DNA of 64,000 nucleotides from Amphiura filiformis (taxonomy: Eukaryota > Echinodermata > Ophiuroidea > Amphilepidida > Amphiuridae): the NCBI RefSeq assembly GCF_039555335.1, contig NC_092642.1, positions 11,730,243 through 11,794,242 on the forward strand, read 5' to 3'. Below the pieces are notes generated by a model that was not told where the DNA came from, searched no databases, and was given only the letters and a program-made list of their open reading frames with translations. The position numbers and the translations under genes were made by a program. How positions within the stretch are numbered: position 1 is the stretch's first letter; every line of letters starts with the position of its first letter. Shown piece after piece: positions 1,688-61,020 of the stretch.

Positions 1688-2998
1688 GCAACTGTGGTCC
1701 AAGCTTATGTTTTAGTTTTAATTTTCTTCACTGTACTTATCTGTACATGTCGGTTTTTCAGTTCTAATTGTGTACTGTTTCTTTGGTTCTTTTGTTTAGT
1801 TTCCTTTAGTATTGTGACATCAACTGGCGTCTGATCTCACCTTGACAATTCGGTTACGTTGTCTAAGAAGAATGCGGCGCATCTAGGTGCTCTAGAATCC
1901 ACTTTTTGATCTCCTTTTGAGGATGTCCCATAAGTTTTCCAGAGTGTGGACTCTTTGAAGGCTACTATACGTTTTAATCCTGATGCCAGGAGCATACGAT
2001 ATTGCTATCTAATAGTTGTACACGATAAACAAAAATCTAAAACAAAATAACTGACGAAAATTGAAACAATGAAACAAAGAAGTGGAACAAACAGGTAAAC
2101 GTAGGAAACAAAAATAGACAGCGTTAATAAAAAAAATGACTGAAGAAAAGGTGTTGTCTTTATGTTCCGTTTGTCATGCTTGTTATACTTTATTTCAGTT
2201 GGTAGAAGGGTCTATCGTGCACCCTCGGAAATATACTTTAAAATCAGAAAACATGCGTAGAAAATTTTAAGATATGTTTAAAAATTCCAAAAGTGTTCCT
2301 AGGGGTCAAATTTCATACAACATGATTGAAATTTCAAAAATGCTCAGATTTTATCAAAAACCACACCAAGGTATTCCTCTAGTCATAATGATTCAGAAAA
2401 AGTATAGTTCGACCTATATGTGACATACCTTTCTTAAGTTATAAGCAGAAAGGTCAAAATTAGGCGTAATCATTTTTTTAGCCACACAGGGGTCGAAAGT
2501 ACTCTGATTTCAATGAAAATGGTCTCAAATTGTTCGTCATGTAAAATGAAATCAAAAAGGAATAGTTTTCACCATCCAGGATACTTCATTACCTAGGAAA
2601 TAGGCTCTTTAAATGCGGAAATGGGGGTTGACCATTGCTGGATTGTTGGCAATAAAAGGCATTCTAGATAGTACAATCTTTTCTTATTTGAGTTCATTTT
2701 ACGTGTTTTAACATAGCTTATCTATGTAGTAGATTTCCAAAGGTGCACGACAGACCCTTCAACCAACTGAACTAATTGGCCTCTGTCATTTTCGAAATAG
2801 GCCTACGACACCCGCCTATTCAAATCCTCGTAACTTGGCTTGTAGAGGTCGCAGAAGATCCACAAAGGCGACAATATTTGCAGAATTAGAGTTACGCGGT
2901 AGCTTTGACCAACAAGTTTTAAAAATAAACGACTGACAAAGAAAACTAAAAATGCTCCGCGAGACTATATTTACACGCAGCATTAAAGTTCTATTGTT

Positions 2999-3260
2999 AC
3001 AGATTAGAGAGGCAATTTGGATCAGGAAACGAGGGCGAAACACCATGAACAGAGACGAGTGGAATTATTTATTACCGAATATTTTCAACCAGCTTCTAGC
3101 GCCGCCACCGGCAGCATCTTCAGGAAAGAAGAAGAAGCAAGGTTGCCAGTCTGATGAAGTGCTGGGTAGCAGCATGAAATTGTAACAAGGTATGTCATCA
3201 AAAAATGGATTTGATAGGATGAATTCACATCAAATAATATCCAAAAATTTTGCTACAGCC
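2999..3260 (+). mobile_element. Penelope-like element, 3' fragment
   Basis: A short open frame reads IREAIWIRKRGRNTMNRDEW and ends at 3185. REA-IWIRKR...MNRDE is the typical C-terminal end of the GIY-YIG endonuclease region of Penelope-like retroelements. The downstream non-coding part matches the longer copy at 19380-19640, of which this is a deleted version inside the duplicated flank. It is a fragment with no reverse transcriptase. Confidence 0.7.
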
Positions 3261-8150: not shown

Positions 8151-9367
8151 TAAGTGTGATATTTTGGCCTAAATACATTTGTTTAGAAAGATACGGCTTT
8201 CGAAAGGAGTGGATACGAGCAAATGGTCTATACACTTTAGTGTGTGATTATTACGTAGTCAATTTACCACACGGCGAATGGGATATGTCCTCTAACTTTT
8301 CTGATGGAAAGCCAGATTGCGGATGGGATGCGTCTAAATGCACACACCAACCATAATTTGCTTTAAAACTACAACAAATATATAGATTGTATATTAATCT
8401 TTTAATATTATTCATCTCTTTATAAACAGAACTGTATTGAACGTATTGAACGTAACAATGTATCCAGATTTGGAGAACCAGAAATAAAATCTCTATGGAC
8501 TATTCAGTCAGTTGAACCCCTCCTTTTGTTTCTTATTTTTCGAAACTGACCCATTTCCACCCAAGCCCCTTATACACATGATGCATGAAACTATATATAT
8601 GATACCAAGATGCAAAGTCGTTTCTGGTTCTTGGGGTGTAAAGGGTTTGAAGAAAGAACAAAATCTTTTGGTTGAAAATTGACATGTATTAAAATTTTTC
8701 TCTGATCTGGAAGGCTCTATTAAAAGGGTACTTTTCTGAAACTGAACAACTTTTTAAGGGTACCTTTTCAAATTTCTGGTAAATTATGAGTCCAAAAAGG
8801 GTACATTTGCTGCATTTTTACTAGCCAAAAACTCATTAGGTGGTAAATTATATGTTAAACTATCTTATTAAGGGGCTAAATTTGCTGGTAGGGTAAAACT
8901 CGTTTAGGGGGCGTTTCAAAAAATTTTGGTCACACATGTGTACACTATCATACTTGAGTGGCCCCCTGGGTACTTTAATAATATCCTCTGCATGAACTCC
9001 TAAAACTAAAATAGCGTGCAAACTCATGGAAAGTACAATGTAAAGTTAACCTAGGTTACCTAGTTAACCTGGGTTATATTAATAATCATTATGAACCTGT
9101 CGCGGCGGCAAACGTAGCATGAAGTTCGTATAGATATGGTGTCACCTGATCAATCAGACCATATATATCTCCAAGATATATGACTAGACGATACATTTAT
9201 TTTGTTCAAAACGTTTATATCAAAATTGGGTGTGATATAACTGGGATATATGCGTTCAAGATAATAACACACAGTCTACTCCATTATTATCTCATTATTT
9301 GTCTCAGGTACCGTAAAGGAACTGTGATATACTTCGGCATATATGCTCCGGCACCAGACAACCAAAC
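8151..9367. other. 5' flank of copy B, paralogous to the flank of copy C
   Basis: From about 8390 the DNA matches 20450-20760 (phrases around AACAATGTATCCAGA and TTTCTGGTTCTTGGGGTGT). From about 9100 to the start codon it matches 22540-22720, including CGTATAGATATGGTGTCACCT at 9127 and 22559. The shared last 250 bp probably hold the promoter of copies B and C. No clear TATA box is visible. Confidence 0.55.
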
Positions 9368-10338
9368 ATGGCTTCACCGGTGGCGTCTTCACTAGTTATT
9401 CTGATCACAGGTTGTGCCCAAGGAATCGGCAAAGAAGTAGCTTTATTTCTTGCACGAGATCCACAACGTCGCTTCAAGGTGTATGCTACCATGCGTAATA
9501 TGGCGACAAGACAAGAGGAGTTGAAAACAGAGGCAGGGAATATTCTTAACGATACCCTGTTTATTCGAGAATTGGATGTTACCAAGCAAGAAACTATTGA
9601 TAATATTGTGAAGGAAATTATCGACATGCAAGGAAAAATTGATGTTTTGGGTAAGATTTTAATTATGTATTAGACATGTTATGTCGAAATGATGACATGC
9701 CGAAATGCTAGAACTAATACTACTCCCAATTCCAGAAAAATACAGACCTAATTATTTTGGATTAAAAAATATTATCCTGTTTTGCCAAATAAAACATAGT
9801 CATTGTTCATTGAATTTACAACCGAATGACAAAACAGGCGAAGATTGGCAATTTAAAGAGATTGGCTATCGCTCATTGAAATGAATCTATATAGACAATA
9901 TAAATGTGCTCTTTCATTTAATGACATAAAATTTTAAAACTATTATAAGGATCACTCGGGGTTTTGACTTTTAAAACCTAAATCTTAGCTGTTCTTGCTT
10001 TCGGCACTTTGAAGATACTTTACCAACTTATCTGTCTGCTACGCTCTGCACGTACAAACCAGCTCGATCACTTCGATCTTCTACCGAACGATTATTGAAA
10101 TCTCCCCGTGTTAATCTTACATCAGTCGGTGAACGCTCCTTTCATTTCGCTGCTCCGGCTGTTTGGAATTCGCTTCCAAACAGCCTCCGTAACACACATT
10201 CGCTTACTCAGTACAAAAAGCAACTTAAAACACATCTTTTTCTTCGTGCTTTTCCGGATACACACATGTAACTTGTTTGTCTTTATTGTTTGTGCGCCTT
10301 GAATTCTTTTGAAGATTGTGCGCCTAATAAGAACCCTC

Positions 10339-10372
<34 letters not shown>

Positions 10373-13300
10373 GGTCCATGAGTGGCCAAACGGTTCCTGG
10401 TAAGCCGTATACTTCTATTACAGTATATGCAGTCTACATGTTCTCTGTTGACAAGGGGCAGTCTTCATTGAACAGCTCTTCCTCAGAGCGAACAAACCTT
10501 TAATTTAGCAGATAGGCGAGGTCTGCTTGTTTTCTGTTGACAAGGGGCAGTCTTCAGTGAACGGCTCTTTTCAGAGCCACCAAAACTTACAAAATCAGCA
10601 GATAGGCGAGATCTGCTTGTTTCTGTTGACAAGGGGCAGTCTTCAGCAAACGGCTCTTTTCAGAGCCACCAAAACTTACAAATTCAGCAGATAGGCGAGA
10701 TCTGCTTGTTTCTGTAGACAAGGGGCAGTCTTCAGCAAACGGCTCTTTTCAGAGCCACCAAAACCTTTATATTAGCAGATAGGCGAGATCTGCTAGTTCT
10801 CTGTAGACAAGGGGCAGTCTTCATTGAACGGCTCTTTTCAGAGCCACCAAAACTTACAAAATCAGCAGATAGGCGAGATCTGCTAGTTTCTGTTGACAAG
10901 GGGCAGTCTTCAGCAAACGGCTCTTTTCAGAGTCATCAGTAGACAAGGGGCGGTCTACATGTCTCATTCTTAGGTACTTTGTCCTGAAGAAGTCAGAGCT
11001 ACTCCTGACGAAAGCTTGACAGTTCTAAACTTGTCCGACGGCGAACCCGCTAAAAACCTACTACTCAACCGTGTAGCGTAAACACAGACTGTGTAGAGAC
11101 AAGGCATTGCTAGCTTGGACAAATTTGTGTATTCAGGCTTATTGAGGTGGAAACTGTGCATAGATGCGTCTATGAGAGATTCGTTTTGTAGCCAAAACCT
11201 TTAAATATGACTAGGAATAAAAGTCAAATTTTAATAGTTTTGCAATTTGGGGGAATTGTTTTAAAAACAAGCAATTTTGCATGATTTCTAACAATTTCAG
11301 TGTTAAAATTCAGAGACTTGGGACAAGTCTAAGCATTCAACAATTTGTAATGTAGGGTAAGAGTTTGCTTATGTGAATTTTGATAATTGCACTCATAGAA
11401 ATGACTTGTTCGCCTTGTTGGCGCAATTCAAAAGGAGTAAGTTTGGACAACTCAAAAATAGTGTAAAAGTTGCCTAAACAAAATTCATTTTAGTTATCCG
11501 AACTTAAAAAATGCTGAAAAAGCTCAAAAAGTTCCGTCAACTAATCAACTTTGTTGGCATTACTTAAAAAGTTGATGTAAGTCGTTGCGTCAACTTTTTC
11601 ATCATCATCAGTCAAGCTTTCTCCAACTGTTGCGATCTTGGGCAAGCGAAACAATTTTGTTTGGCTGCAGCATCCCTTCAGTATCTCCTAGTAGGTGCTG
11701 GACATACTGTAAGTACAGTGTGCGCGGTCGTCCCGGTTTCCTCTTCCCATGTGGTGGGATATAAAGAGCATATTCTTTCGCAGGCTCGCAATCTTCGAGA
11801 CGCAGTATATGGCCGAGAAATTTGAGTTGATATAACTTGACTCTGGCAACCAGTGGAGTGGTGTTGGTCAGGTGGTAGATGGTTTCATTTGGAGTCCGAT
11901 CCACACGCTTGATATTTAACATGACTCTGTAGCAAGATGTTGCAAAGGCATTGATCTTGTTTTCCATGTCCTTGGTAATTACCCATGACTCTCCACCCGT
12001 ACAGAAAGACAGTAACACACGTTGTCTGAAACAGCTTGATTTTTGTTTCGATTGGCAGGGACGGGCTTCTCCAAAGGCGTTCCAGTTTCCAGAAAGCTGC
12101 CCAGGCTAGTGCTTTTCTTCGTTTTAGGTCTCCAGCACTAGAGCCCATCTTGGAACCCAAATACTTGAAGTCTGTGACATGGTTGATAGTGCTACCATAG
12201 ACTTCAAGTGATGGTTGGGCATTACAGTTTGCAGTCATGTATTCTGTCTTAGGTGCGCTGATGACAAGGCCTAGATCTGCTGCTGCAGTTGCAGTCCTAG
12301 TAAGCTGTGACTGGGCCCGGGCTATGGAAGATTCCAGCAGGGCAATATCATCAGCAAAATCCAGGTCATTCAGCATCTTGGCAGGATACCTGCTTGACCG
12401 ACGTGGGTAGGTAACAATTCCAGCGTCAATTCCAGAAGTTGATTTCTTCAGAAGGTAGTCTACCAGGATAATGAACAGGAATGGTGCCAACACATCACCC
12501 TGAAGCATTCCAGTTGTTACTTGGAATGGCTCTGAGATACTGCTGCACTATTGGAGTCCTTGTAAAGCACCTGGATGGCATTTACCACAACCTTTGGTAT
12601 TCCATAATGCCGCAGCACTGAAAACATGACGGACCTGTTGATGGAGTCGAAGGCTTTTTTGAAGTCCACAAAAGTGACTGTTAAGGGAAGTTGGTACTCC
12701 TTGAAGCCTTCCATGATCCTCCTCAAAATGTGTATTTGCTGAGCACAGCTGCGACCCGATCTAAAGCCAGCTTGGTTGCTTCTCAGTAAAGGATCAAGGT
12801 GAGGTCGGATCCTGTTCAGAAGGATCTTGTTGTACACTTTTGCGGCAATGGACATAAGCGAAATACCACGGTAGTTTGTCATGAGAGAGAGGTCACCTTT
12901 CTTTGGCAGAGGAATTATTACATTTGTGACCCATTGACGTGGCGGTGTCAGCGTTGAGAATACTTCCATACAGAATTCGAGAATCATATCAATCATGCTA
13001 TCCCCTCCTCCCTGAAGTGCTTCTGCAGTTATAGCACAGTCATAGGGAGAGTTGGGGGCTCAGTGATAATAGGAAGATCTTCAACAGCTGGCGCAGGAAG
13101 TTCTGAAGCTGCTGTGCCACTGTCGTTGTTAAGGAGGGAGCTAAAATATTCCTTCCATTCCTCAAGCAGTTCATGGTCACTGGTTGGAACTGATCCGTCT
13201 CTCTTTTTGACTTTCACCCCCCTTTCTTGAGTTCTTCCCATAAAGTGAGTGTATGATTTTCCAGGTGGTGGTATAATTCCCCATCTCGTCGGCCAGCTTC

Positions 13301-14760: not shown

Positions 14761-16999
14761 ATAATAACGTAAAAAAATTCCAAATTCTTTTCAGTCAATA
14801 ACGCAGGAATACCTTTTAAATCCTGGTGGGAAACGGATCCAATGGAGGCGTACTATGAAGTCATGGAAGTCAACTATTTTGGATGCGTCAGAATGACTAG
14901 GGCGGTAATCCCATACATGAAAGAAAAACGGAATGGCAGAATTCTTCAAATCTCAAGTGTATCTGGATTCCATGGTAGGCCTAATTGTTTTCTGTTAAAT
15001 AATAGTTTCTGTTGCAAAATAACTTAAGACTAAAAATTAGGGTTAGGCGAATTTTGGCCTACTAATATCATTTGAGTTATGAAGCCCAACTCTTTGGGAC
15101 CGGTTAAAGAATCTTGTCCTCAACACTTTAATATTGAAAAGGTAACAAAGACATTGGTTTGCTGATTTTTCAAATAATTAGGTATTCCTCTTGGTGCATC
15201 ATACATTGCCTCCAAGTTTGCCCTAGAGGGTTTCAGTGAGTCTATTGCTCCACCACTAAGGAAGTTTAACATCTGGTAAGTAGACTACAATCATGTTAGG
15301 ATAGCCTTATTCTTTATAAAATATCAATTAATTGACAACTGTTAGTTGTGATAACATTTAATCTTTTCATGTAAAGGCATTGACCAATCAATTTGCAATT
15401 AAATTTAACAAATTAGTTGATGGGTCATTAATAACGAACATCGAAGCAGCATCGACGGTCGATCCCGAGATCGATCAAATTTGTCTGTGGTGCCTTAAAG
15501 TGGAGCTATTAATATGCAGACGTCTTTGCTGACGATTTACCGTTGCGACAGACGTCGCCTTTTTAGGGACGCACCATTAGATTCTCAGTGGGGTAGGAAG
15601 TTGGGGTCGGGGCAATTTTTTTTTAATTTTCATGCATTTATACACTGTGAGGTGGGGAATGTTAAAAAAAAGTCTTACCCCCTGAGAATCTAATGGTGCG
15701 TCCCTTAGTTCTCTACAACAACTTTCGGTTTTCGCCTTGATTTTCCGCTCAAACATGGCTCAAGTGATTAGTTTTATTCAAGGCTTTGCTTCCCATCTGG
15801 ACGTGTTCAACACAGCTCTATGAAAATCTCAAAGAGTACAATTATTAGTCTAGTAGATAACCTTAAAATGTCTTTGAAAGTGTAAACCTGGGTATGACTA
15901 TCATATTTGGGCTTTATATGATAGTTTCAGATGGGTAGAAGAAGAAATTTGGCATTTCGAGATATCCGAGGTCAAAGTTTACACAGGGGTTAAAATTCAA
16001 AATTGCTCAAATTGTGTTAAACCCAATTCCAAAGTATTCCTTTGGTAATAAGGATTAATAAAATATAGTTGAAAAGATCGAATGTCAATATTTCGGCTCC
16101 ACTTGGGTCAAACAGAAATTTTTTTATTATTTTTCAAATTGTCTCAAATGGATAATAGAATAGTTTGCACGATGCAGGACTTTCTGTTACCAAGGAAAGA
16201 CAGCAAAATAAGTCACAATGAATAGGACTGAATGCGTACTGACCCATTTTGATGTGTGTCAGCTTTATTGCCGTTTGACAATATTATTACTCTCCATTAC
16301 TCTCATACCAAGTAGTACCAAGCAGCTGTTTCAATTTAATATGTTAGAAAGATATATTTCTGCTGATGACCCCATGTTGACATTGGTTAAACAATCTGTA
16401 TTTTCGCCCGTAAAGGTACAAATAAATGAGATTTTGTGTGTGCCATTTTCATATGTGTGACATATTTGGAATCTTTCTAACCAATCTAATCAGCATCTCC
16501 CTCACGATGTCTGCTCACGGGCCGAACAAAATATACACCACGTGCTTTATATCCTTTGTTAGGACATCGCTGTTCTGAGGCAAGACGTCAACGTACGTCA
16601 ATTCCTTGTGAGCTCATGTTTTCGCAATAAACCACAAACTTGAAATGTTTGGATCTCTTGATTTGCAGGGTTTCTGTAATCCAGCCAGGTTATGTTGCGA
16701 CCGATATGATCAAACAGTTTGGTGACAACCCTACTGATGCATTTGCAAAAGCAGCCGGTATAATCCCAGGAGAAGAAGAGCGAAAAATTGTCACAAATAT
16801 GCTGACCTCTGACCCGGAAATCGTCGTAGGAAATGATATGCTGGACCCTCAAGATTTGGCGAAACAATTACAAGATGTTATCCTCTCACCCAAATCTGAT
16901 TTTCGGTATCAGACTTCAAAGGCAATTAAGAGATTGGCAAGGGAAAAGTTTGTTGACCCGACGGGCAACGCGATCATGAATGCTTGGTTAAAGCAGTAA
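9368..16999 (+). CDS. SDR copy B (RDH8/HSD17B1-like), complete, 4 exons
   Basis: Exons: 9368-9650, 14795-14974, 15182-15275, 16669-16999; all introns GT-AG. They join in frame to 295 aa. The cofactor motif TGCAQGIG is residues 14-21; ATMRN after beta-2 has the basic residue expected of NADP(H)-preferring members; NNAG is 96-99. The catalytic tetrad is Asn121 (NYFG), Ser149 (ISSV), Tyr162 and Lys166 (YIASK), with the usual 13-residue Ser-Tyr spacing. EPG-like VIQPGYVATDM follows. The arrangement matches RDH8 and 17-beta-HSD1 (about 310-330 aa) but with a shorter tail ending NAWLKQ and no membrane segment. Likely a cytosolic retinoid, steroid or other carbonyl reductase; the substrate cannot be read from sequence. 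Intron 1 (5.1 kb) is swollen by an L2 tail, a histone-stem-loop array and a LINE nested in a MITE. Start chosen because the MAS start is shared by all copies. Confidence 0.93.
10010..10372 (+). mobile_element. L2/CR1-group LINE, 3' end only
   Basis: A translated stretch near 10130-10265 reads RSFHFAAPAVWNSLP-like residues followed by a KKQLKTHLFLRAF-like tail, the usual last part of L2/CR1 RT proteins. It ends in a GTGCGCC segment and an (ATT)n run at 10341-10372 as the 3' repeat. It is 5'-truncated and lies in intron 1 of copy B. Confidence 0.65.
10441..10975 (+). repeat. 89-bp tandem array, six units, each with a histone-type stem-loop
   Basis: Six units repeat at exactly 89 bp. Each carries GACAAGGGGCAGTCTTCA, then a stem-loop, then ACCAAAAC, then a second hairpin (AGCAGAT...ATCTGCT). 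The stem-loop GGCTCTTTTCAGAGCC is at 10563, 10652, 10741 and 10830; a diverged one is at 10474 and one with a changed 3' arm at 10919. GGCTCTTTTCAGAGCC followed by ACCA and preceded by AAC is the metazoan replication-dependent histone mRNA 3' end (SLBP site), here in sea-urchin form. No histone gene is near. The unit downstream of the stem-loop also matches the Penelope-like element at 59287-59325, so the array probably derives from that element family. Confidence 0.85.
10980..11021 (+). ncRNA. Hammerhead-ribozyme-like core (weak candidate)
   Basis: TGTC, CTGAAGA (fits CUGANGA), an extra A, stem GTCAG/CTGAC (10992-10996 with 11005-11009), GAAA, a minimal helix III and GACA pairing back to TGTC. 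Penelope-like elements are known to carry hammerheads with very short helix III. The extra A and the 4-bp helix I make activity doubtful. Confidence 0.3.
11390..14700. mobile_element. Non-autonomous DNA transposon split by a LINE
   Basis: The ends are inverted: CACTCATAGAAAT at 11390 and its complement ending at 14700, followed inward by the shared block GTTGATGTAAGTCGTTGCG and GTTGGCATTACT. Without the LINE it is about 670 bp with no transposase. Compared with the empty site in intron 1 of copy C (near 23332), the target duplication seems to be only TG. The superfamily is unclear. Its interior has many GAGTTATT/AACTCAA-like variants. Confidence 0.75.
11600..14232 (-). mobile_element. RTE-type LINE inserted in the MITE, 5'-truncated and decayed
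   Basis: Minus-strand non-LTR retrotransposon flanked by a 7-bp target duplication ACTTTTT (11593-11599 and 14233-14239) and ending in a short (GAT)n tail. The endonuclease remnant (from 14234 down) has GIQEHRL, YAPTECS and LGDFNARIG. RT pieces contain NYRGISLMSIAAKVYNKIL, VDFKKAFDSINR, LQGDVLAPFLF and FADDIALLE, then DFKYLG. NYRGISL and LQGD point to the RTE/RTEX group. The coding region is in at least five frames, so it is dead. It inserted after the MITE was in place. Confidence 0.85.
14719..14761. repeat. (GAT)n microsatellite
   Basis: About 14 GAT triplets just upstream of exon 2 of copy B. A related GAC/GAT tract is at the same place in copy C (23806-23870), so the repeat predates the duplication. 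Confidence 0.9.
15566..15704. mobile_element. PIF/Harbinger-type MITE, 139 bp
   Basis: Inverted ends GGGACGCACCATTAGATTCTC with TTA target duplications (15563-15565, 15705-15707). The empty site is in copy A at 1163 (CGCCTTTTTAGTTCTCC). It lies in intron 3 of copy B. Confidence 0.85.
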
Positions 17000-18282: not shown

Positions 18283-18682
18283 TCCACAAAGGCGACAATA
18301 TTTGCAGAATTAGAGTCACGCAGTAGCTTTGACCAACAAGTTTTTAAAATAAACGACTGACAAAGAAAACTAAAAAGATGCTCCGCGAGACTATATTTAC
18401 ACGTAGCATTAAAATTCTATTGTTTTATGATATTTTGCCCTGGGTACAAAATATATCTAAATATAAAACTATGCTAAATATTGGTTACTGTTCTAAGTTT
18501 AATATTTTAAAAACTCAATTAATTTAAAAAAAGATACAACGCTGCAGTCAATCATTGCTTGGTAATAAACAAATTATCTTGTTTCATTTCACCCGGTATT
18601 TCATAGCCAATTATGATTAGTTGAAAATATACCTAATATCCAGAATTTGTTGTATTAGATTCATCTGGATTGTTCATAAATA

Positions 18683-18937
18683 CTATTTGATGGGAATTCA
18701 TTCTATCAAATCCATTTTTGATGACACACCTTGTTACAGTTTCCTACTGCTACGCAGCACTTCATCAGACTGGCAACGTGACCTTGCTTCTTCTTCTTTC
18801 CTGAAGTTGCTGCCGGTGGCGGCGCTAGAAGCTGGTCGAAAATATTCGGTAAGAAATAATTCCCCTCGTCTCTGTTCATGGTGTTTCGCCCTCATTTCCT
18901 GATCCAACTTGCCTCTCTAATCTGTCTTTTGTTCCTG
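18683..18937 (-). mobile_element. Penelope-like 3' fragment, inverted partner
   Basis: Near-complement of 19370-19620: the C-terminal endonuclease end, the CTGATGAAGTGCTG hairpin and the 3' non-coding part. With the plus-strand copy beginning at 18938 it forms a head-to-head inverted pair, an arrangement Penelope-like elements are known for. Confidence 0.75.
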
Positions 18938-19640
18938 TTGAAAAAGTCTAAAAAGAAAAGCGAAACGAACAGGAAAAGTCGGTTGGTCGTAGTTCCTGTT
19001 GTTGAAGGATTGTCACCCAATGTCAAAACATGACGTTGCAACAGCCTTCAAACCGCACAAAACAATTAGCAATATTTTAGTTCACCCCAAGGACAAACGG
19101 GACATATCGCAAACCTCGGACTGTGTGTATGAGATCCCTTGCAAGAATGGTAACAAGGCCTACATTGGCGAAACTTCACGCTTGTTTGGCACACGTCTAA
19201 AGAACATCAAGGAGAATCGGAGAATGCAGCACTTGGGGGTACATACTCGGTCACAGAGGAAACAATCGCTCACAGAAGTAAATAAATTTGCTATTACATA
19301 CCACGTTGCGCAAACCAACCATGTCATGGGTTGGGAGGACGCTAATATCAGATCAAGGTAGGCCAACAGGAACAAAATACAGATTAGAGAGGCAATTTGG
19401 ACCAGGAAACGAGGGCGAAACACCATGAACAGAGACGAGGGGAATTATTTATTACCGAAGATTTTCGACCAGCTTCTAGCCTTCCACCGGCAGCAACTTC
19501 AAGAAAGAAGAAGAAGCAAGGTTGCCAGTCTGATGAAGTGCTGCGTAGCAGCATGCAACTGTAACAAGGTATGTCATCAAAAAATGGATTTGATAGGATA
19601 AATTCCCATCAAATAATATCCAGAATTTTTGCTTCAGCCC
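18938..19640 (+). mobile_element. Penelope-like element 3' part with GIY-YIG endonuclease
   Basis: The frame at 18999-19361 encodes a GIY-YIG nuclease: ISNILVHPKDKRD, the Cys-containing CVYEIPCKNGNKAYIGET (the GIY and YIG strands appear as VYE and YIG), RLFGTRLKNIKENRR, and later SRQ-like residues. REAIWTRKRGRNTMNRDE follows from 19384. RT is absent. This nuclease makes the target nick in Penelope retrotransposition. The element is broken and lies in the spacer between copies B and C. Confidence 0.8.
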
Positions 19641-22522: not shown

Positions 22523-22720
22523 ATAGGGTTTCGCGACAGCAAATCGTAGCATGAAGTTCGTATAGATATGGTGTCACCTAATCAATTAGACCATATAGAT
22601 CCATGAGATATATGACTTGACGATACATTTATCAAAATTGGGTGCGATATAACTGGGACTTGTCTTGTAAAGTACTGTAAGGGACTTTGATACACTTTCG
22701 CTGGCACCAGACAACCAAAC

Positions 22721-25700
22721 ATGGCTTCACCGGTGGCTTCTTCACTAGTTATTCTGATCACAGGTTGTGCCCAAGGGATCGGCAAAGAAACAGCTTTGTT
22801 TCTTGCACGAGATCCACAACGTCGCTTCAAGGTGTATGCTACTATGCGTAATATGGCGACAAGACAAGAGGAGTTGAAAACAGAGGCAACGAATATTCTT
22901 GACGATACACTGTTTATTCGGGAATTGGATGTTACCAAACAACAAACTATTGATAAAACTGTGAAGGAAATTATCGACATAGAAGGAAAAATGGACATTC
23001 TGGGTAAGATTTTAATTATGTATTAGACATGGTAACATGCCGAAATGCTTACTTACTTGCAGAAAAATACAGCACTAATTATTTTGGGTTAAACTTATTA
23101 TCCTATTTTGCCAAATGAAACATAGCTAAATCGTAATTCCTTAGTAAGTTCTAACTGAGAATTAAAGTCAAATTTTAATAGGTTTGCAATGGGGGGGGGG
23201 ATTTAGTCAAAAACAAGCAATTTTGCATGATTTCTAACAATTTCAGTCTTAAATTTCAAAGACTTGGCACAAGTCTAAGCATTCACATACATTTGATATT
23301 TCACGTGAGTTTTGATATACGGTAAATTGGTTATGAAAGATATTAGAAAATATATTTTTCAAAACTTATAACACATAACCTGAAATTAGTTTTAGTACAA
23401 ATGACTTGATTGTATGTCTCAGCATACAACAACAAAAACCACTCTAAAAACGCAATATTTTTGGCCCTTATTTAAAAAAGTAGCCAAATTATAAAATGTG
23501 ACCTTTATTGCCAGTTAGAACTAACTAAAGGATTCGGATTCAGCTATGTTTCATTTGGCAAAACTGGATAATATTTTTTAATTCCATGCTGTATTTTTCT
23601 GGAATAGAGAGTAGGCAAGTCATTGGCTCAACATTGATAGCTTTTGGACAAGTGACAAAGATCAACCAATACCTTATGATAAAGCCTAGGGTTGTGTAGT
23701 GCTTCAGTCTGAAGGTCGGATCATTTTGGGGTAATTAGAAAAAGATTATGTTGAGGGTAAAAATTCCGAAATACCGGCAATTCGACAGATCCTGTTGACG
23801 AATAACGACGACGACGACGACGACGACGATGATGATGATGATGGTGATGATGACGGTGATGATGATGATAAAACGTAAGGAAATATTTCAAATTCTTTTC
23901 AGTCAATAACGCAGGAATATTAAATACCGTCTGGTGGGAAACAGGTCCAATGGAGACATTCTATGAAGTCATGGAAGTAAACTATTTTGGATGCGTCAGA
24001 ATGACTAGGGCAGTAGTCCCATACATGAAAGAAAAACGGAATGGCAGAATTCTTCAAATCTCAAGTGTCAATGGATTCCATGGTAGGCCTAATTGTTTTC
24101 TGTTATATAATAGTTTCCTTTGAATTAATGTTGCAAAATAACCGGTTAAAGAATCTTGTCCTCAAGACTTAAAACAACATTAAAAAGGTAACAAAGGCAT
24201 TGGTTTGCTGATTTTTCAAACAATTAGGTATTCCTATTTGTGCATCATACACCGCATCCAAGTTTGCCCTGCTGGGTTTCAGTGAGTCTATTGCTCCACC
24301 ACTGAGGAAATTTAACATCTGGTAAGTAGACTACAATCATGTTAGGTAATATAGCCTTATTCTTTATGAAAACTGTTAGTTGTGATAATATATAATCTTG
24401 TAAGGCATTGAGCAATACCATTTTACAATTAAGTCTGAACAATTAGTTGATAAGTCAATAATAACAAACATCGAAGCAACATCGACGGTTGATCCCGAGA
24501 TCGATCAAAATCGCCTGTTTAGTTCGCCACAACAACTTCCGGTTTTTGGTCTTGATTATCAATAGATTGACTATATAGTTGTGATAACATTAATCTTTGC
24601 ATGTTAGGCATTGACCAATACAAATTTACAGTTAAGTCTGAAAATTAGTTGATAGGTCATTAACAACAAACATCGTAGTAGCATCGACGGTCGATCCTGA
24701 GATCGATCAAATTTGGCTGTGGTGCTTCAAGGCGGAGCTATTATTATTAAGACGTCTTTTGTTTCTATCTGGACGTTTTCAATTAAGGCCCAATTTCTAC
24801 CAATCTTGAGAGCTCTATGAAAATCTCAAAGAGAACAATTTTGTTATTAGTCTAGTGGATAACCCTAATAATAATAATAATAAGAGAGACTTAATATAGC
24901 GCCCAACGCTGATAGCCTCTGGGCGCTGAACAAATAAAATACCTTAAGCTACAAATACAGATATACTTAACTTAAACATGATAATAACACGCATATATCT
25001 GACACATATTAAACACCTTAAGATAAGCAAGATAATACAAAACCAATTTACATTATTTACGAGTATATTGAGTCAAATATTACTTCAACAATATAAATTA
25101 GGATATACAAAAACAAAGTACATATTTAAAAGTATCATATATACAGAAATAGCACAAATTAAAATAACTTTGGGAATGTGAAGATGCGTGACCAGCACAA
25201 TAACAGGAAAATGGTAACCCAGGAGAGGAGAGGTTACCAGCACTTCACTCTCAGTATGTGCAACAGCAACATACTCCCTGAAACACTAGGGCTGAGTTCA
25301 CGAGAATGATAAAAGCGATGTGCCCGGCACAACAATGACGTAGAAAATCCCTGGAGAGGAGAGGTTACCAGCACATCACTCTCAACAAGTGCAACAGCAA
25401 CTTGCTCCGTAAGATGACAAATCGGCAGGGTAAGCAAATTAAATAAACATATACATGAAAAATGGTTGTATAACAGCTAGGTACATCAATATATAAAACC
25501 CCAAAATGTGAAATCAGATTAATCTGGCAGCGTGAATAAATGCGAATTGAACTGCTCAATAGATTTTGAACCGCGAATGAATGGTGGGAGTTTGTTCCAA
25601 AGTGACGGCGCGGATGACGAAAATGCGCGATAGCCGTATGTAGCAGTCTTGAGTGATGTAACTGGCTGTGGTTTTAGAAGCACTTCAGACGATGAACGAA

Positions 25701-28700
25701 GGGTACGAGCAGGCTTCCGAACTACAATGATCTCCTTGATGTAATCAGGCGCGAAACCGTGGATGGCTTTATAGGTAAGCAGAAGAATTTTGAAGATAAT
25801 TCTTTTCTTCACAGGCAGCCAGTGGAGTTGGCGCAACACAGGTTTCATATGACAACGGCCTTTTACTCTGGTAACCAAACGCGCAGCCGAATTTTGTATT
25901 CGCTGTAATTTATCCAATTCGGAATTCGGAAGACCAAACAGCAGCTAATCGCAAGGTGATGAAGGCATGTACCAGTTTCTCCGTTGAAGGTTGATCAAGG
26001 AAACTACGCAGTCTACCAATCTTGTACAGCGCAAACTAAGCACTCTTGCAGATACTGCTGACATGCTTGGACATGGTTACGTTGCTGTCAATAACAACAC
26101 CGAGGTTGCGAGCTGAAGATGTTGTTTCAACGTCGAAGTCACCGATATGGAGAGAAGAAATCGGTGTTGTTGGTACAAAACGAGAATGAAGATGCAAAAT
26201 CTCTGTTTTGCTGTCGTTTAGCATAAGCATGTTTTTCACCATCCAGCACTTGATATCCTTTACACAGCTTTCGACAATGTGTACAACGTTGTCCAATTCA
26301 CAAGATTTGAAGGTGAAATACACTTGTGTATCGTCTGCATAAATAATGCACTGTAAGCCGTGGGCTTCTACAATTTCTTCAATGGGCGATATATACATTG
26401 TAAAAGCGAGAGGGCCAAACACCGACCCTTGTGGCACACCACGTGTCACGGGTACAGGATTAGATTTCGTACCATCAATCACAACATACTGTTGACGCTC
26501 GTGAAAATATGACTCCAGCCACTTAAGTGCAAGGCCACAAATACCGAAGCGATTTTGCAGACGGCGAAGGAGCGCATGATGATCAATCGTGTCGAAAGCT
26601 GCCGACAGATCCAACAGCACCAGCATGACTTCACAATGTTTATCAAGGGCACGAAGGATGTCATTTGTGACACGAACTAGAGCTGTCTCGGTGCTGTGGA
26701 ACTGTCGGTAAGCAGATTGGGCTTTTGCATGAAAGTTATTTCAGACAGATATTGCTGAATTTGAAGAACCGCAGCACGCTCCAAAACTTTATGCAAAAAA
26801 GGCAGGTTCGATATTGGACGATAGTTCGCCAGCACATTTGAGTCTAATGTAGGCTTCTTGATCAGAGGTGAAACCAACGACACTTTCAACTCAGCAGGGA
26901 TATAACCACTTGAAAACGACTCATTGGTAATCTTCGTGATGACGGGTAAGACCGAATCCAGCATCTCAGCGAGAAGCGGTGTCGGAATTGGATCCAGGGT
27001 GCAAGATGTTTTCGAAGACTGCATGATAATCTTGCGAACTTCGTCATCTGCCACATTACGAAATTTCGCGAACTCAGTTGTGCAGGAGTCAGATATATCA
27101 ACAGACATAGTTCCCGGATCAGAAGTGACAAGTTGCGAGCGAATATTGTCTACTTTTGAATCAAAGAAATCTTGAAACTGACTGGTGAGGCTCTGAAGAG
27201 AATTAGAGTCCGGAAGGGTCTTGGCTGGCTTAGCAGTGGTGAGCTTGTCAACAGTGCGAAACAGTTCGCGTTGATTACAATTCGAAAGTTTTGTGTTGTA
27301 ATAGACTCGCTTTGCAGACTCTAGTGATGTACGATAGTCGGAACAGAAAGAATGAAAAATCTGTTTGTCAATAGTAAGACCAGACTTGATCCATTTTCTT
27401 TCCAGACGACGTTTCTCTCTTTTTGAAGCACGGAGACTGTCATCGTACCAAGGTGCGTGGGGCCGGAGGGATATTTCACGTTCACATTCAAGTGCATGTT
27501 TGTCAAATGCATCATGAAGCACTGAGTCGTACGTTTTAACAAGAGCTGAAAGATCACGATCTTCATGATCATTAAACAAAGAAGACGACTTGATAAAATG
27601 TCTTTTAAAGTGTAAACTTGGGTATCATATTTAGGCTTTATATATAGTTTCAGATGGGTAGAAGAAGAAATTTGGCATTTCGATATATCCAAAGTCAAAG
27701 TTTAAACAGGGGTTAAAATTGTTCAAATTGAGTTACCCCAATTCCAAAGTATTCCTCTGGTAATAAGAATTTATAAAATATAGTTATAGAGTTATATGTG
27801 AAAAGATCGAATGTCAATATTTCGGCCCCACTTGGGTCAAAACAGAAATTGCTTCCAATTTAAATGTTTTTAAATGGTTTCAAAGGTTTATCTTGATAGA
27901 GCAATCCAAAAAAGAATAGTTTGCACGATTTAAGACATTTGGTTACGAAGGAAATTTCTTTCTATTACTATCATATCGTGAAGTACCAAACAGCTGTTTC
28001 AATTCAATATGTTAGAAAGATATATTTCTGCTGATGACCCCATGTTGACATTGGTTAAATAACCTGTATTTTTTACAAATTAGTGACATTTCTTGTCCGC
28101 CATTTTGATATGCGTGACGTATTAAGAATCTTTCCAACCAATCTAATCAGCAGCTCCTTCACGATCTGCTCACGGGTCGAACAAAATATTCACCACGTGC
28201 TTTATATCCTTGCTTAGGACATCGCTGTTCTGAGCCAAGACGTTAACGCACGTTCAGTGGCCTAACTAGGGTTGGTAGCGCCCGGGGCAAGAAACAAAAT
28301 TGGCGCCCCTACCCCGGCCCCTCACCCAAGAATATCTTAGAAGCGGGCAGTGGCATAGCTAGGGGTTTGTAGCGGCCAGGGCCAAGGATATATAATGTCC
28401 CTCCCCATTCTTGAAACAATTGCGCGCGGAGCGCGCGAAATTTTGGACAAATAAGGCCTATCACTAATTAATTTTGGTTACTAGAAGTTGATTATCAGTC
28501 TTAAAATGTTCTTTCAATTGATTTTGTGTTGAAATGCGCACGAAGCGCGCGAAAATTTTGACTTTCATCGCTTGGAGGGGCGCAGAATCGATGTTGAATT
28601 GGTCAATTTGGCGCCCCCCCTAATGGTAGCGCCCGGGGCACGTTGCCCCCCTCTGCTCCCCGCTAGTTACGCCACTGCGCACGTTAATTTCTTGTGAGCT

Positions 28701-29081
28701 CATGTTTTCAAAGTAAACTTGAAATATTTGCATCTCTTGATTTGCAGGGTTTCTGTAATCGAGCCAGGTTATGTTGCGACAGATATGGTTAAACAGTTTG
28801 GTGACAACCCTACCGACGCATTTGAAAAAGCAGCCGGTTTAATCATCCCAGGAGAAGAAGAGCGAAAAATTGTCACGAATATGCTGACCTCCGACCCGGA
28901 AATCGTCGCAGGAAATAATATGCTGGCCCCTCAAGATTTGGCAAAACAGTTGCAAGATGTTATCCTCTCACCCAAACCAGATTTTCGGTATCAGACGTCA
29001 AAGGCAATTAAGAGATTGGCAAGGGAAAAGTTTGTTGACCCGACGGGCAACGCGATCATGAATGCTTGGTTGAAGCAGTAA
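22721..29081 (+). CDS. SDR copy C (RDH8/HSD17B1-like), complete, 4 exons
   Basis: Exons: 22721-23003, 23903-24082, 24228-24321, 28748-29081, all GT-AG and in frame; 296 aa. Cofactor motif TGCAQGIG at 14-21, NNAG at 96-99, Asn121, Ser149, Tyr162, Lys166. The YxxxK reads YTASK, and the residues before it differ from B (PICAS). Exon 4 has one extra codon (AAGLIIPG against AAGIIPG in B). Promoter-proximal DNA is shared with copy B. Intron 3 (4.4 kb) holds an L2 LINE and a hAT MITE; intron 1 is short (0.9 kb) because the elements found in copy B are absent. No disabling change is visible. No clear AATAAA follows the stop in the first 200 bp. Confidence 0.93.
23806..23870. repeat. (GAC/GAT)n microsatellite
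   Basis: Triplet tract in intron 1 of copy C, homologous in position to 14719-14761 in copy B. Confidence 0.85.
24866..27594 (-). mobile_element. L2-type LINE, 5'-truncated
   Basis: Minus-strand L2-like element in intron 3 of copy C. Frames: 27579-26677 (pre-RT region with SLVSPLIKKPTLD and NYRPISNLPFLHKVLE), 26626-26036 (RT with LLDLSAAFDTIDHHALL, RGVPQGSVFGPL, YADDTQVY) and 25917-25519 (HWLPVKKRI, SAPSLWNKLPPFI, end). The endonuclease is missing. The 3' end carries the GGGCGCTATATTAAG signature and (ATT)n tail at 24866-24882. Comparison with copy B (15850) shows the empty site. Its 3' non-coding region has a direct duplication (25220-25290 and 25350-25420, GGAGAGGAGAGGTTACCAGC). Confidence 0.85.
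28255..28677. mobile_element. hAT-type MITE, 423 bp
   Basis: Ends CAGTGGC...GCCACTG with an 8-bp target duplication CGCACGTT (28247-28254 and 28678-28685). A second GCAGTGGCATAGCTAGGGG block inside suggests a nested or duplicated terminus. The empty site is in copy B near 16595. Confidence 0.9.
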
Positions 29082-35115: not shown

Positions 35116-35208
35116 TGTCAACATTAGTACAAATATATAGTCAAAATAGAATAGTCTACACCAGCTGTCTCGGCTACCTAATATTTGCTCTAGTACCATA
35201 CATACAAC

Positions 35209-38200
35209 ATGGCTTCACAAGTTATTCTGATCACAGGATGTGCTCAAGGCATCGGCAAAGAAGCAGCTTTGTTTCTTGCACGAGATCCACAACGTCGCTT
35301 CAAGGTGTATGCTACCATGCGTAATATGGCGACAAAACAAGAGCAGCTGAAAACAGAGGCAGGGAATATTCTTAACGATACACTGTTTATTCGGGAATTG
35401 GATGTTACCAAGCAAGAAACTATTGATAAAACTTTGAAAGAAATTATAGACATTGAAGGGAAAATTGATGTTTTGGGTAAGATTTTAATCATTTGAAATT
35501 AGTTGTATAATATGTCGCAAATTTAGGCACACCATTGGCTCAACATTGCTAGCCTTTGCAGAAGTGACAAAATGTCAACGAATACCACAGGATATTAGGC
35601 CTAGGGTTGTTTACTGATTTATTCTATTTGTCGAATTAAGAAAAAGATTATGAGTAGGGTGAAAATATTGAAATACCGGAATATCGACAGATTCTGTTGC
35701 CAAATAATAACGATGATGATGAAACAAACATTACAAATGTCAGTGTACCCAAGGGTTATTGTGCCCAATCCATCAAAACCATAGTTAGGGCAAAAACCTC
35801 AATTTGGTGACCACTCTGGCCGGCACCATCTTGAAAAAATTAGTTTTGAACCAGAGGACCTAAAATCGTGTACAATGACACTTTTTTTGCATAAGTTGAC
35901 CACAAGGATTTCGAATCTGACATTACTTTGTCATTACGACCTCATTTTTACCCAGAAATCCAAGATGGTGGCCGCCGGCGCTATCTTGTAAAAATAAATT
36001 TTGAACCAGAGTACCTAAAATCGTGTAGAAAGACACTTTTTCCGGTAAGTCGACCCCAAGAAATCCGAATCTGACATTAATTTGACGTTATAACATAATT
36101 TTTGCCCAGAAATCAATTTGAATGAGAGCAGAAGCATAAGTGTGTCCTTTCCGCCTTATCTGGGGTTCATGTCCCTTTTATGGGGTTTAAACTGCCTTAT
36201 CTTGGGTTTACATCCCTTATCTAGGGATAAGGCGCCTTATCTGTGGTTTAGACGGCCTTATCCTGGGTTTACGTTCGTAACCCAGATAAGAGTGCACACC
36301 AGTAAATACAAGTCTCCTACACCCTGGGAGAAAAAAAATCAGTGTTTCAAACGAGGAAACGTGCAATACGACTGAATTAAATCCATTAGAAAAGGCTTAA
36401 AACCCAACTATTAGGCCCTGATTCATATTTAATCCTCATTTAGGCCTGGGAAATAGATTGTGTGTGAACAATGAGCAGGATCTGACTTTTTATTACAATT
36501 TGGCTAAACTTTCAAAATGTGTTACATTTCAGAAACACTAAGCTATTTGTAAGGTGGCGTGCGTTGTATGGGCTATAGGGTGATCTAGAAAAAAATGCTG
36601 GACTCCGTATATAATTTCTACAATAGATGACTTCATCTGACCTCCGACTTGCAGAAAGGGTAAGTTTTGAAGAACTGAGTCGCTCTGGAGTCAAGACCCT
36701 GTTTGTACAGAAAGTCAATGGGAGCTATTTACTGGTGTGCACCCATAAGGCATCTAACCCCTAGATAATGCGCCGTAACCTCAGATAAGGGACGTAGACC
36801 CCCGTAAAGCAGTCCAAACCCCAAGTAAGGCGCCTTAACCCTAAATAAAAAAAAAAAAAAATAAGGAACATTAACCCCAGATAAGGCATCTAAATCCCAC
36901 ATAAGGTGCCTTACCTCTAGATAAGGGTCGTTAACCCCAGAAAAGGGTCGTAAACCTCAGATAAGGCATCTAAATTCAAGATAAGGCACCTTAACCTCAG
37001 ATAATAGACGTAAACTCAGATATGGCAGTCTAAACCCCAGATAAGGCGCCGTAACCCCAGACAAGGGGTCTCAGATAACGTACGCCTCAGATAAAGCAGT
37101 CCCAACCCATAAGGCGCCATAACCCTAAATAAGGAACATAAACCTAAGATAAGAGAAGTAAACCCCAGACCTGGCAGTCTTAACCCGAGATAAGGCGCCT
37201 TAACCCCAGAAAAGGAACGTAAACCCCAGATAAGGCGCCTTAACTTCAGATAAGGGACGTAAACCTAGGATAACACAGTCTAAACCCCAGATAAGGCATC
37301 TAACCCCATATCAGGCGCCTTAACCCCAGCTAAGAGACGTAAGCCCAGATAAGGCAGTCTAAACCCAAGATAAGTCGCCTTCCATCAAATAAGGAGCGTA
37401 AACCCCAGATAAGGCATCTAAACCCCAGATATGGTGCTTTATCCAAAGATAAGGGACGGAAACCGCAGCTAAGGGACGTAAACCGCAAATAGAGCAATCT
37501 AAATCCCAGATAAGGGACGTAAACCCCAGATAAAGCTGAAATGACACATATATGCTTTCATATACATTACTATTTTATAATAAGCCAAAAAAAGGAGTTA
37601 ATTCATGATCCTAGGTGCTCCCATTCAAAAATTACATTTACGCCTTACCAAATAGGGCCATCTTGGATTTCTGGGCAAAAATTATATTATAACGTCAAAT
37701 TAATGTCAGATTCGGATTTCTTGGGGGTCGACTTACCCGAAAAAGTGTCTTTGTACACGATTTTAGGTACTCTGGTTCAAAACGTATTTTTTCAAGATGG
37801 CGCCAGCGGCCGCCATCTTGGATTTCTGGGTAAAAATGAGGTCGTAATGGCAGATTCGAAATCCTTGTGGTCAACTTATGCAAAAAAGTGTCATTGTACA
37901 CGATTTTAGGTCCTCTGGTTCAAAACTAAATTTTTCAAGATGGTGCCGGCCACCATCTTGGATTTCAGGGTGAAAATGATGCCGTAATGTCAAACTAATG
38001 TCAGAATCGGAATCCTTGTACTCGACATATCCGAAAAAATGTCTTTGTGCATGATTATAGGTGCTCTAGTTCAAAGCTTAAATTTTCAAAATGGCGGCGG
38101 CGGCCATTTTGGATTATGGCCTCCAGCGAAAAATGCCGGGATTTTCGCGGGGGACATGGGCTATTTTTTTTTTCTAAATGGTCCATAGAAGTCGAATCAA

Positions 38201-42505: not shown

Positions 42506-43015
42506 GGGGATAAAGTGTACTTTTGTTCTACTTGTCTGAAATTACCAAGTCTATAGACGAATCCAACGAGCCAAGTCATGGTCAGGATTTGGTTGGCCAT
42601 TTTTGGGTCCCCGCAGCACCTAACTGGTGTTGTGACTGCCCAATTGGGTGGATTAAAGCCACTTAAAATCGATATTAGATTATTTTGTGTTGTCATCTTT
42701 CTTTTGTCTGACGTGTAACACAGGTGATAGAATGCAGTTTAAAATACCTCCAAGGCCGCATCATTTCACATTTTAGGTGAAATGGAGCCGACGGGGACCC
42801 AGCTAATGGCTGTCATTGAGGTGTAGGAATGAGTGAAATTGGATTCGTCTATAGCTTACTTTTAAGCAGAGAGTAGTTATTCTTGAGAGGGCACTCTATT
42901 CACGTGGTTTCTTTTCCAACGCTAAAAGATCACGAATTTTGGTGGTTTGCAAATGAAAAGTGTCCGCACTATCGATTGATTACGTAACTGTTATGAATAA
43001 TTTATTAGTTTTTCA

Positions 43016-43346
43016 ATGCAATCGCCTCGACCCATTAGTACGTATTATCTGTATTATCAAAGTATTTGGAATAACAATCCGGTGAGTTCAATGAACTACG
43101 CCCTAATACCGATGGAGTTTCAATGGCGTCTTCTCTCCATACACAGATGAACAAATACAATAGAAGAAGGTCAGCACATAATGCAATCGCCTCGACCCAT
43201 TAGTACATATTATCTGTATTATCAAAGTACTTGGAATAACAATCCGGTGAGTGCAATGAACTACGCCCTAATACCGATGGAGTTTCAATGGCGTTCTTCT
43301 CTCCATACACAGATGAACAAATACAATAGAAGAAGGTCAGCACATA
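43016..43346. repeat. 165-bp tandem duplication
   Basis: Two nearly identical copies beginning ATGCAATCGCCTCGACCC at 43016 and 43181. Only a few differences, so recent. Confidence 0.9.
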
Positions 43347-45980: not shown

Positions 45981-47210
45981 CAAGGGGGTGACACTAAATT
46001 CACGGTTGTTCTATTAGCAACGCAAAATCTATGAAAAATTCAGCTGGTTTACTAGCTAGAAAGTGAGGCCAGTTATCGATCCGTTATAGCTCGTTATGAA
46101 TAATTCATGTTCGACCCTTGGATCATGTTAATTGAGTTTGGCAAATAACAACGTTGTTCGTTTTGCGAACTTTGCCTGTTTAATGAGAGTATAACCCGCC
46201 CCCAATACATCTGGGCGCAAAACAGGCGAAAACGATACAGTTTAATGAAATGGCGGACGGGTATTCCCATCAGGCACCAGTTATATGTTTTTTCAAAGAA
46301 AGTCTACTAATTTGATATAAAATGACATTTTGCAATAGCAAAGTCAAAATTAGGACTTGCTGTCAATAATATGAAGGAAATATGTGACAGAGGCAAGGTG
46401 AGAAATACAAGTAGTATTTAAGTTATAATAACCTTTGATACCCGACCTGACCTTCCATCATGGCGCCTTATTCGTCTTTATGTATTTCTATTATGCTCTC
46501 AAGTAAAATAAAATACCAATCTGCTCTGAGCAGACAATGTTACTTGGCTCCCAGCACGAATTATTGATTTTATACGGAAGTAAAGAAATGCACAGTGTAT
46601 GTGCATGATGTGCAAGCATACTCCAAATATTTACGGTAAATCTGAATAGTGGTCACATGTTAACATATCATGTGTTCGGGAAATCACGTGGCAACATTTT
46701 AAGATTTCAGGCTTGTTTACTAGTTAATTGCCATTTGTACTCTTTATTATTTATCTTTGTTAATTAACATATATTTTAAATGCTGATAAATCGTGGTTGG
46801 CTACCCATGATATCTGTCGAAATTCAATGTTTTATGAATATAATTCTACCACGCAGAGGGGGTCACGCAGCAGAATTTCACATCACCTGACTTAGCTACA
46901 TTTCGAAGCTCTGCTCTTCAAATTCATGTAAATTTCAAAGTTTATACATTTAATATATTTAATATGATACTAATTTTTGTCATAACCAACTGGTACACGA
47001 AATATACTAGCTTATTACCTATACAGAAAGGTGATTATCAGCCTTCACTCAGCAAATTGACATGCCCGGCATATGCAGCCATTCTCCGTCTGGATAACCT
47101 GACTGTCGCCCTCAATACGTCTGGGCGCAAATTTAAATAACAATACGCTATTTACATATCAATGTGGCCTCATGCTAATTAAAGCTGCCCCATCCAGGAG
47201 TTCATCTATG
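45981..47210. mobile_element. Insertion in exon 1 of copy E, 1230 bp, family unknown
   Basis: Bounded by GTAATAT at 45974-45980 and 47211-47217 (8 bp with one mismatch if extended). Starts CAAGGGGGTGACAC, ends TTCATCTATG; no terminal inverted repeats and no poly(A). Inside, CAATACATCTGGGCGCAAA (near 46203) recurs as CAATACGTCTGGGCGCAAA (near 47113). No coding frame. Confidence 0.75.
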
Positions 47211-47426
47211 GTAATATGGCAACAAGACAAGAGGAGTTGAAAACAGAGGCAGGGAATATACTTGACGATACATTGTTTATTAGGGAATTGGATGTTACCA
47301 AGCAAGAAACTATTGATGAAACTGTGATGGAAATTGTCAACAATGAGGGGCAGATCGATGTTTTGGGTAAGATTTTAATCAGTATATGCATTATTATAAT
47401 ACATCCAAACAAACCCATTCTTCAAT

Positions 47427-47466
47427 TTGTTTGTTTGTTTGTTTGTTTGTTTGTTTGTTTGTTTGT
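47427..47466. repeat. (GTTT)n microsatellite
   Basis: Ten tetramers in intron 1 of copy E. Confidence 0.95.
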
Positions 47467-47557
47467 TGGTTTTATTTTAGTTTTATGATATTGAGGGAAT
47501 ATTTATTTTTATAATGCATTTTTGTCCATTGTAAAGACCTGCAGTTTATCAGTTACT

Positions 47558-59286: not shown

Positions 59287-59302
59287 GGCTCTTTTCAGAG
59301 CC
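59287..59302 (+). promoter_or_regulatory. Histone-type mRNA 3' stem-loop
   Basis: GGCTCTTTTCAGAGCC: 6-bp stem, TTTC-type tetraloop region, preceded by CCAAAC and followed by ACCA. This is the SLBP recognition element of replication-dependent histone mRNAs. It lies 15 nt after the stop codon of the Penelope-like first frame, as in real histone mRNAs. The purine-rich CAAAATGAGATA at 59312 could stand for a U7 site, but this is weak. Confidence 0.85.
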
Positions 59303-60773: not shown

Positions 60774-61010
60774 ACTGGTCACTGATTACTGATTGCTGAT
60801 CACTGACTGCTGATTGCTGATTGACCAGTTACTGATTACTGAATGGTTACCTGATTACTGATTGATCAGGAGCTGATTACTGATTGTTCAGTCACTGATT
60901 GCTGATCGTTCAGTAGCTGATTACTGATTGTTCAGCAGGTATAAGACTGATCACTGAATGCTGAAAACGCTGATTGTTCAGTAGCTGATTACTGATTGGA
61001 TTGCAAACTT
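60774..61010. repeat. CTGATTACTGATTG minisatellite
   Basis: Variable units made of CTGATTACTGATTG, GCTGATTG and TTCAGTAG words for about 235 bp, directly after the Penelope-like RT. Confidence 0.9.
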
Positions 61011-61020
61011 GCTGAATGAC

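Follow-up and report, generated by a model that had tools for sequence, protein, structure and literature searches.

Tandem histone-type stem-loops next to a hammerhead-like motif in an apparent intron of Amphiura filiformis: a possible retroelement relic

In a 64,000-nucleotide stretch of the genome of the ophiuroid Amphiura filiformis (NC_092642.1, positions 11,730,243 to 11,794,242; hereafter, the window, numbered from its first nucleotide), we analyzed a short tandem array of 89-bp units, most of which carry a stem-loop of the kind that, to our knowledge, normally terminates histone messages only. A motif with the layout of the minimal hammerhead ribozymes of Penelope-like elements follows on the same strand. 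We tentatively interpret the array as a relic of a retroelement in which RNA 3' ends of the histone type were combined with a self-cleaving ribozyme, a sequence-based reading that we put forward as the best explanation even though we would hesitate to call it probable. On this reading, the intron of a dehydrogenase gene would have received the insertion, most likely the terminal region of a Penelope-like element or else a derivative that was non-autonomous.

The array was delineated by TRF in the window at 10439-10932 (5.5 copies of 89 bp, 89% matches, score 742), and no further copies of it were found within the window. The hairpins start at 10474, 10563, 10652, 10741, 10830 and 10919, that is, with a spacing of exactly 89. 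A scan of both strands for the 16-mer GGCTCTTTTCAGAGCC, allowing up to 3 substitutions, returned 6 places, 5 in the array and one at 59287. Perfect copies start at 10563, 10652, 10741, 10830 and 59287, and a single deviation is present in the copy at 10919, confirming the description in the initial annotation of four perfect array copies and one altered in the 3' arm only. In units 2-5 (the interior units), the stem-loop consists of a 6-bp stem and a UUUC loop flanked by AAC and ACCA, the latter directly 3' of the perfect 16-mer.

The Rfam model of the histone 3' stem-loop (RF00032, Histone3; gathering score 34 bits) recognized, on the plus strand, the stem-loops of unit 2 (10563-10578, 34.8 bits), unit 3 (10652-10667, 37.1 bits), unit 4 (10741-10756, 34.9 bits) and unit 5 (10830-10845, 34.8 bits), along with the single histone-type stem-loop at 59287-59302 (42.0 bits); a search of the whole window at E up to 2 yielded no additional place. 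The covariance check thus came out in favor of four of the six array units, but not of the two at the edges. Unit 6 (10919-10934, plus strand) scores 19.9 bits, below the threshold, with a single 3'-arm change that gives a G-U pair and with ATCA replacing ACCA. Unit 1 (10474-10489, plus strand) is a degenerate hairpin rather than a histone stem-loop, with a 5-nt loop, no ACCA and ~4 changes including an insertion; it was missed by the 3-substitution scan and is absent from the Rfam output at E up to 5. The array had been described as six histone stem-loops, and the exact spacing of 89 stands, but the count does not, because four copies are good, one is weak and one is lost. Conceivably, the minus strand could be the functional one, with the palindrome forming a GAAA-tetraloop hairpin and the histone likeness being accidental: for one unit folded both ways, the minus strand was equally stable (-25.8 vs -25.7 kcal/mol for the plus strand). 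However, the histone-specific AAC and ACCA flanks are preserved in all four interior units, and the plus-strand Rfam scores of four units and of the 59287 stem-loop exceed the threshold; we regard this possibility as extremely slight.

When folded singly, each interior unit forms three hairpins, namely, HP1, the histone stem-loop and HP2. HP1, CTGTTGAC..GTCTTCAG, contains two U-U mismatches, one of which becomes an A-U pair in units 4 and 5; in unit 3, the fold places it at 10623-10646 (plus strand), and the copies in the remaining units start at 10445, 10534, 10712, 10801 and 10890. HP2, AGCAGAT..ATCTGCT, is located at 10686-10706 (plus strand) in the fold of unit 3. The initial annotation listed two hairpins per unit, overlooking HP1, and its assignment of HP2 to every unit applies to five of the six (the unit 1 copy carries one change), whereas unit 6 ends before HP2. 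From sequence and fold, we also identified a truncated seventh unit that extends past the TRF end of the array and consists of an HP1 copy whose stem of 6 bp reads GTAGAC/GTCTAC (10938-10963, plus strand). Two units taken in another register gave folding-energy z-scores of -2.27 and -2.23. TRF also hinted at a regular higher-order repeat of 267 bp, but the unit identities did not support it.

In a column comparison restricted to units 2-5, which excludes the degenerate unit 1 and the truncated unit 6 and uses blocks picked post hoc, 15 of the 90 columns vary, all of them within the 32 columns outside the hairpin blocks, whereas the 58 columns of the blocks (AAC-stem-loop-ACCA, 23; HP2, 17; HP1, 18) are invariant. 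Conservation of the stem, previously seen as a hint of recent amplification or selection, is therefore real, but the HP1 and HP2 blocks are equally invariant, so that it is accounted for equally well by recent amplification or by constraint acting on the unit as a whole, and we rejected the notion that the histone stem-loop is specially conserved. The pattern of variation fits hairpin constraint or merely recent amplification, and does not single out the histone stem-loop.

The main rival explanation is that the array is a non-functional minisatellite. Its seed would have been part of the 3' end of a histone gene, acquired directly or through an element carrying such a piece, and slippage or unequal exchange would have multiplied it, with the stem-loop as a passenger and the neighboring hammerhead as chance or an unrelated relic. 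The stem-loop is conserved no more than HP1 and HP2, there are only 5.5 copies, with both edges degenerate or truncated, the flank past ACCA weakly resembles the Rfam histone consensus, and the frames of the surrounding insert lack a Pfam match to a mobile-element protein. We consider this explanation a serious possibility, against which stand the hammerhead core ~15 nt past the last, truncated unit, the second stem-loop located beside Penelope-like reverse transcriptase (RT) frames, and the finding of a histone domain in none of the 40 frames scanned.

The putative hammerhead, a minimal Penelope-type motif identified by descriptor scans at 10979-11022 on the plus strand, starts 46 nt past the TRF end of the array and ~15 nt past the truncated seventh unit. 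It comprises stem I (TTGTC/GACAG), the core CTGAAGA, an extra A and stem II (GTCAG-AGCTACTC-CTGAC), followed by GAAA, two bases, TT and the stem I strand GACAG, and the predicted cut falls at 11017/11018. The detailed consensus of minimal hammerheads is taken here as general background. The full descriptor (stems I and II of at least 4 bp, two helix III bases), written after the motif had been spotted by eye, is found once in the window, with 0.01 expected per window (100 simulations) and 0 found in 150 simulated windows; a relaxed descriptor is found once in the window and 11 times in 150 simulated windows. Reduced to the core, GAAA and a stem II of 4 bp or more, the descriptor matches three places in the window (2051, 3151 and 10984), vs 0.32 expected, and the expectation drops to 0.107 per window when stem II is required to have at least 5 bp; two places, the present motif and the one at 3151, have a stem II this long together with exactly one extra base, vs 0.033 expected. 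In searches at E up to 5, 10 and 2, the Rfam hammerhead models gave no match to the motif, nor did they match the Penelope remnants in the window, and the descriptor scan found no hammerhead core within the array units. An argument from a stable fold of the motif was rejected (z -0.56). Small Penelope-associated hammerheads reportedly cleave as dimers; here, there is a single motif. The available part of one study reports minimal hammerheads, usually without helix III, for all available Penelope-like sequences (PMC6155905), and their layout, as given in the parts available of this and a second report (PMC6155905, PMC7229834), is that of the motif at 10979-11022.

The same bases are covered by a 35-aa open stretch (10974-11078, plus strand) that sits behind a splice-acceptor-like TTCTTAG and weakly matches the Pfam family Vault_3 (E 1.7e-4, 22.1 bits, cut-off 28.8), raising the possibility that the "hammerhead" is what is left of a protein-coding exon. 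In that case, the stretch following the array would derive from an exon encoding the major vault protein, the hammerhead resemblance would be due to chance, and the array would be an intron repeat of a vault gene or a copy thereof. A variant query retained the Vault_3 match (E 2.8e-4), and the best PDB match is to the major vault protein, over 26 aa. However, the latter match is not significant (E 1.4), the Vault_3 score falls short of the Pfam cut-off, the similarity stops after 26-27 aa with a stop codon next, and two 5-bp stems together with all hammerhead core bases would have to arise by coincidence (~1e-5, a rough estimate). Because chance would need to supply both stems and every core base right beside the array, the motif at 10979-11022 is more likely a hammerhead than a vault relic, and we consider the vault exon an improbable explanation.

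Comparison with a paralogous stretch of the window shows that the array belongs to an insert. The segment 9100-9799 aligns with 22531-23125, and 11210-11366 aligns with 23154-23312, whereas the intervening 1.4 kb (9800-11208, plus strand) is absent from the paralogue at 22.5-23.3 kb. The insert consists, in this order, of what we take by eye to be an L2-like 3' end with an (ATT)11 tail reaching 10372, the array, and ~250 bp more, with the hammerhead motif. No Pfam match was obtained for the L2-like part, the borders of the insert against the paralogous stretch show no clean target-site duplication, and the insert is composite. A pLTR-like copy of the insert, sought in the window as a pLTR-ORF-pLTR structure, was not found. 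None of the 14 frames of at least 40 aa overlapping 10373-11208 matched RT, GIY-YIG or histone domains at E up to 0.1, and Pfam detected no mobile-element protein in the insert frames; given that the RT-like frame at 59739-60668 likewise goes unrecognized by Pfam, a decayed RT in the insert could escape detection. AATAAA and ATTAAA are both absent from the plus strand of 10373-11208, which counts weakly in favor of the relic reading because only ~1.5 occurrences are expected there by a rough estimate.

The assertion that the array lies outside any histone gene was upheld. The Pfam scan covered all 40 stop-to-stop frames of at least 100 aa in the window and 1 of the 39 frames of 85-99 aa; a histone domain was found in none of the 40, although broken relics in shorter frames could escape, and in none of the short frames tested before 59287 and after the array. 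Near the array, no histone downstream element was recognized by eye. The frame at 9317-9670, on the same strand as the array, matches the short-chain dehydrogenase family (PF00106, E 2.3e-12), and Pfam adh_short frames recur at 22691-23023, 35194-35493 and 47183-47485 (the last one weak). A second family of related frames is located at 1136-1570, 16631-16999, 28698-29081, 40544-40933 and 54826-55182; we take these to be the last exons of the same dehydrogenase genes, though Pfam gives no match. The adh_short frames, which represent the first part of the dehydrogenase, alternate with those of the second family, apparently forming a tandem cluster of dehydrogenase genes. With the second family read as last exons, the array appears to be intronic to one of these short-chain dehydrogenase genes.

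The stem-loop at 59287 has a different neighborhood. It lies 15 nt 3' of a TAG (59269-59271) that closes a basic reading frame, ..RRLEDRRKKAVAEKKKNKNSRHPYRRHHRAKPF, for which Pfam gives no match, and ~165 nt 5' of an ATG at 59468. The broken plus-strand frames at 59468-60770 contain the motifs TADVTSLYTNIP and YRDD, which we take to be those of a Penelope-type RT. Pfam RVT_1 does not match the main RT-like frame (59739-60668), whereas LINE-type frames elsewhere in the window do match; PDB and NCBIfam searches with the frame returned nothing relevant, and its structure prediction was unusable (mean pLDDT 39.1). Against viral contigs, the frame gave 3 pattern matches, of which 0 were confirmed, and two DNA patterns gave none; the two bacterial matches of an 18-base pattern in genome contigs were taken as chance. 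At 60770-61250, the RT-like frames are cut short by a degenerate minisatellite of the CTGATTA type, which is followed by a second repeat of ~66 bp. Penelope-like elements with two ORFs and without an endonuclease are known, according to the available part of PMC6431247.

The two stem-loop loci share little sequence. When the insert was compared by local BLAST with the remainder of the window, the only significant sharing was the stem-loop with its flank (5 matches, 28-40 bp long and 85-92% identical; best E 4e-7). The 3' flanks of the array and of the 59287 stem-loop score 11 against each other, and 6 and 8 against the Rfam histone consensus; a flank score of 11 is reached by 0.12% of random 23-mers from the window, and in a 25-mer test, ~1% of random window stretches (192/20000) reach the score. 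The resemblance of the array flank to that at 59303, pointed out in the initial annotation, is thus genuine but modest, and we rejected it as proof of a Penelope origin because it is too weak. Between 10373-11208 and the Penelope-like region at 58.7-60.8 kb, the significant sharing is limited to the stem-loop and ~20 nt of flank, which does not establish the proposal that the array is a tandem part of the same Penelope family. Common descent of both stem-loops, either from one element or from the histone genes of the species, nevertheless seems likely.

A connection between the array and Penelope remains plausible, on grounds other than those originally offered: the hammerhead motif follows the seventh unit at ~15 nt, although neither RT nor GIY-YIG is detected in the insert and the flank resemblance is weak. 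With the hammerhead beside the array and the Penelope-like RT beside 59287, each of the two loci carries an independent hint of Penelope ancestry. The hammerhead-like core at 3151 serves as an internal positive control, because the Penelope remnant that contains it, at the 3' end, is of the GIY-YIG type. This Penelope 3' end spans 2998-3240, and the core overlaps the last codons of an apparent endonuclease frame. Two further copies of this 3' end, at 18.7 kb (minus strand) and 19.5 kb, fail to satisfy the descriptor, leaving the one at 3151 as the only match among the three. The relative of the 3151 remnant includes a GIY-YIG frame at 18993-19361 (E 5.6e-4, slightly below the cut-off).

If the array is indeed a retroelement relic, the RNA of its source element would have ended in the histone fashion. 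RNAs cut by hammerheads lose the poly(A) tail. The hammerhead would cut the plus-strand RNA after 11017, 83 nt past the last stem-loop, yielding an end without poly(A), and the stem-loop binding protein (SLBP), bound to the stem-loops, would substitute for the tail in stability, export and translation, possibly tying the RNA of the element to the S phase. Stem-loops in series would raise the odds that one of them works, and unequal exchange or tandem reverse transcription would account for their spread. We infer cleavage, SLBP binding and S-phase timing from the sequence. The more far-reaching proposal, that a Penelope-like lineage swapped poly(A) for histone-type stem-loops plus a hammerhead and relies on the SLBP pathway for the processing, export, translation and timing of its RNA, seems to us rather unlikely, if worth stating. 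If true, it would mean that a retroelement with a histone-type signal exploits the histone route of RNA finishing, linking its life cycle to DNA replication, and would suggest how hammerhead-cut RNAs, devoid of poly(A), stay stable and translated in Penelope-like elements. A decoy function has also been suggested, in which transcripts with multiple stem-loops titrate SLBP and so disturb the processing of histone mRNAs; there are four intact stem-loops in tandem, but a single locus with 4-5 sites would hardly rival histone mRNA in the S phase, and we attach very little probability to this idea.

With the histone 3' UTR stem-loop (RF00032), the array shares the stem, the UUUC loop, ACCA and an A-rich 5' flank; it differs in being tandem and apparently intronic, with a hammerhead motif downstream, no histone domain among the frames of at least 100 aa scanned in the window, and no downstream element recognized by eye. 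With Penelope-like elements, which are characterized by pLTRs and minimal hammerheads, it shares a putative minimal hammerhead on the same strand with a vestigial helix III, and a Penelope-like stretch elsewhere in the window bears the same stem-loop, whereas the insert is without a detected RT or endonuclease. Animal non-LTR retrozymes, as described in the available part of PMC7229834, similarly combine short, self-paired, low-GC tandem repeats with a type I hammerhead, but their units are ~150-450 bp long with the hammerhead inside the repeat, in contrast to the 89-bp units and the single putative hammerhead outside them observed here. Among the matches listed from the open literature, mostly titles and beginnings of abstracts, none describes Penelope-like elements that carry histone stem-loops, or a stem-loop array combined with a hammerhead, and none of the listed papers naming Penelope, histone, stem-loop and hammerhead together ties, in its available part, histone stem-loops to Penelope. 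The giant squid genome paper, in its available part, merely counts 235 Hammerhead_1 and 133 Histone3 Rfam matches.

Two other features of the window are worth recording. In the GIY-YIG Penelope remnant at 18680-19630, the 3' end is present as inverted copies (91% identity) flanking the endonuclease frame, an arrangement that recalls the inverted-repeat structures of rotifer Penelope elements described in the available part of PMC3846280. The region 43015-43346 is a 165-bp tandem duplication, with the copies 97% identical.
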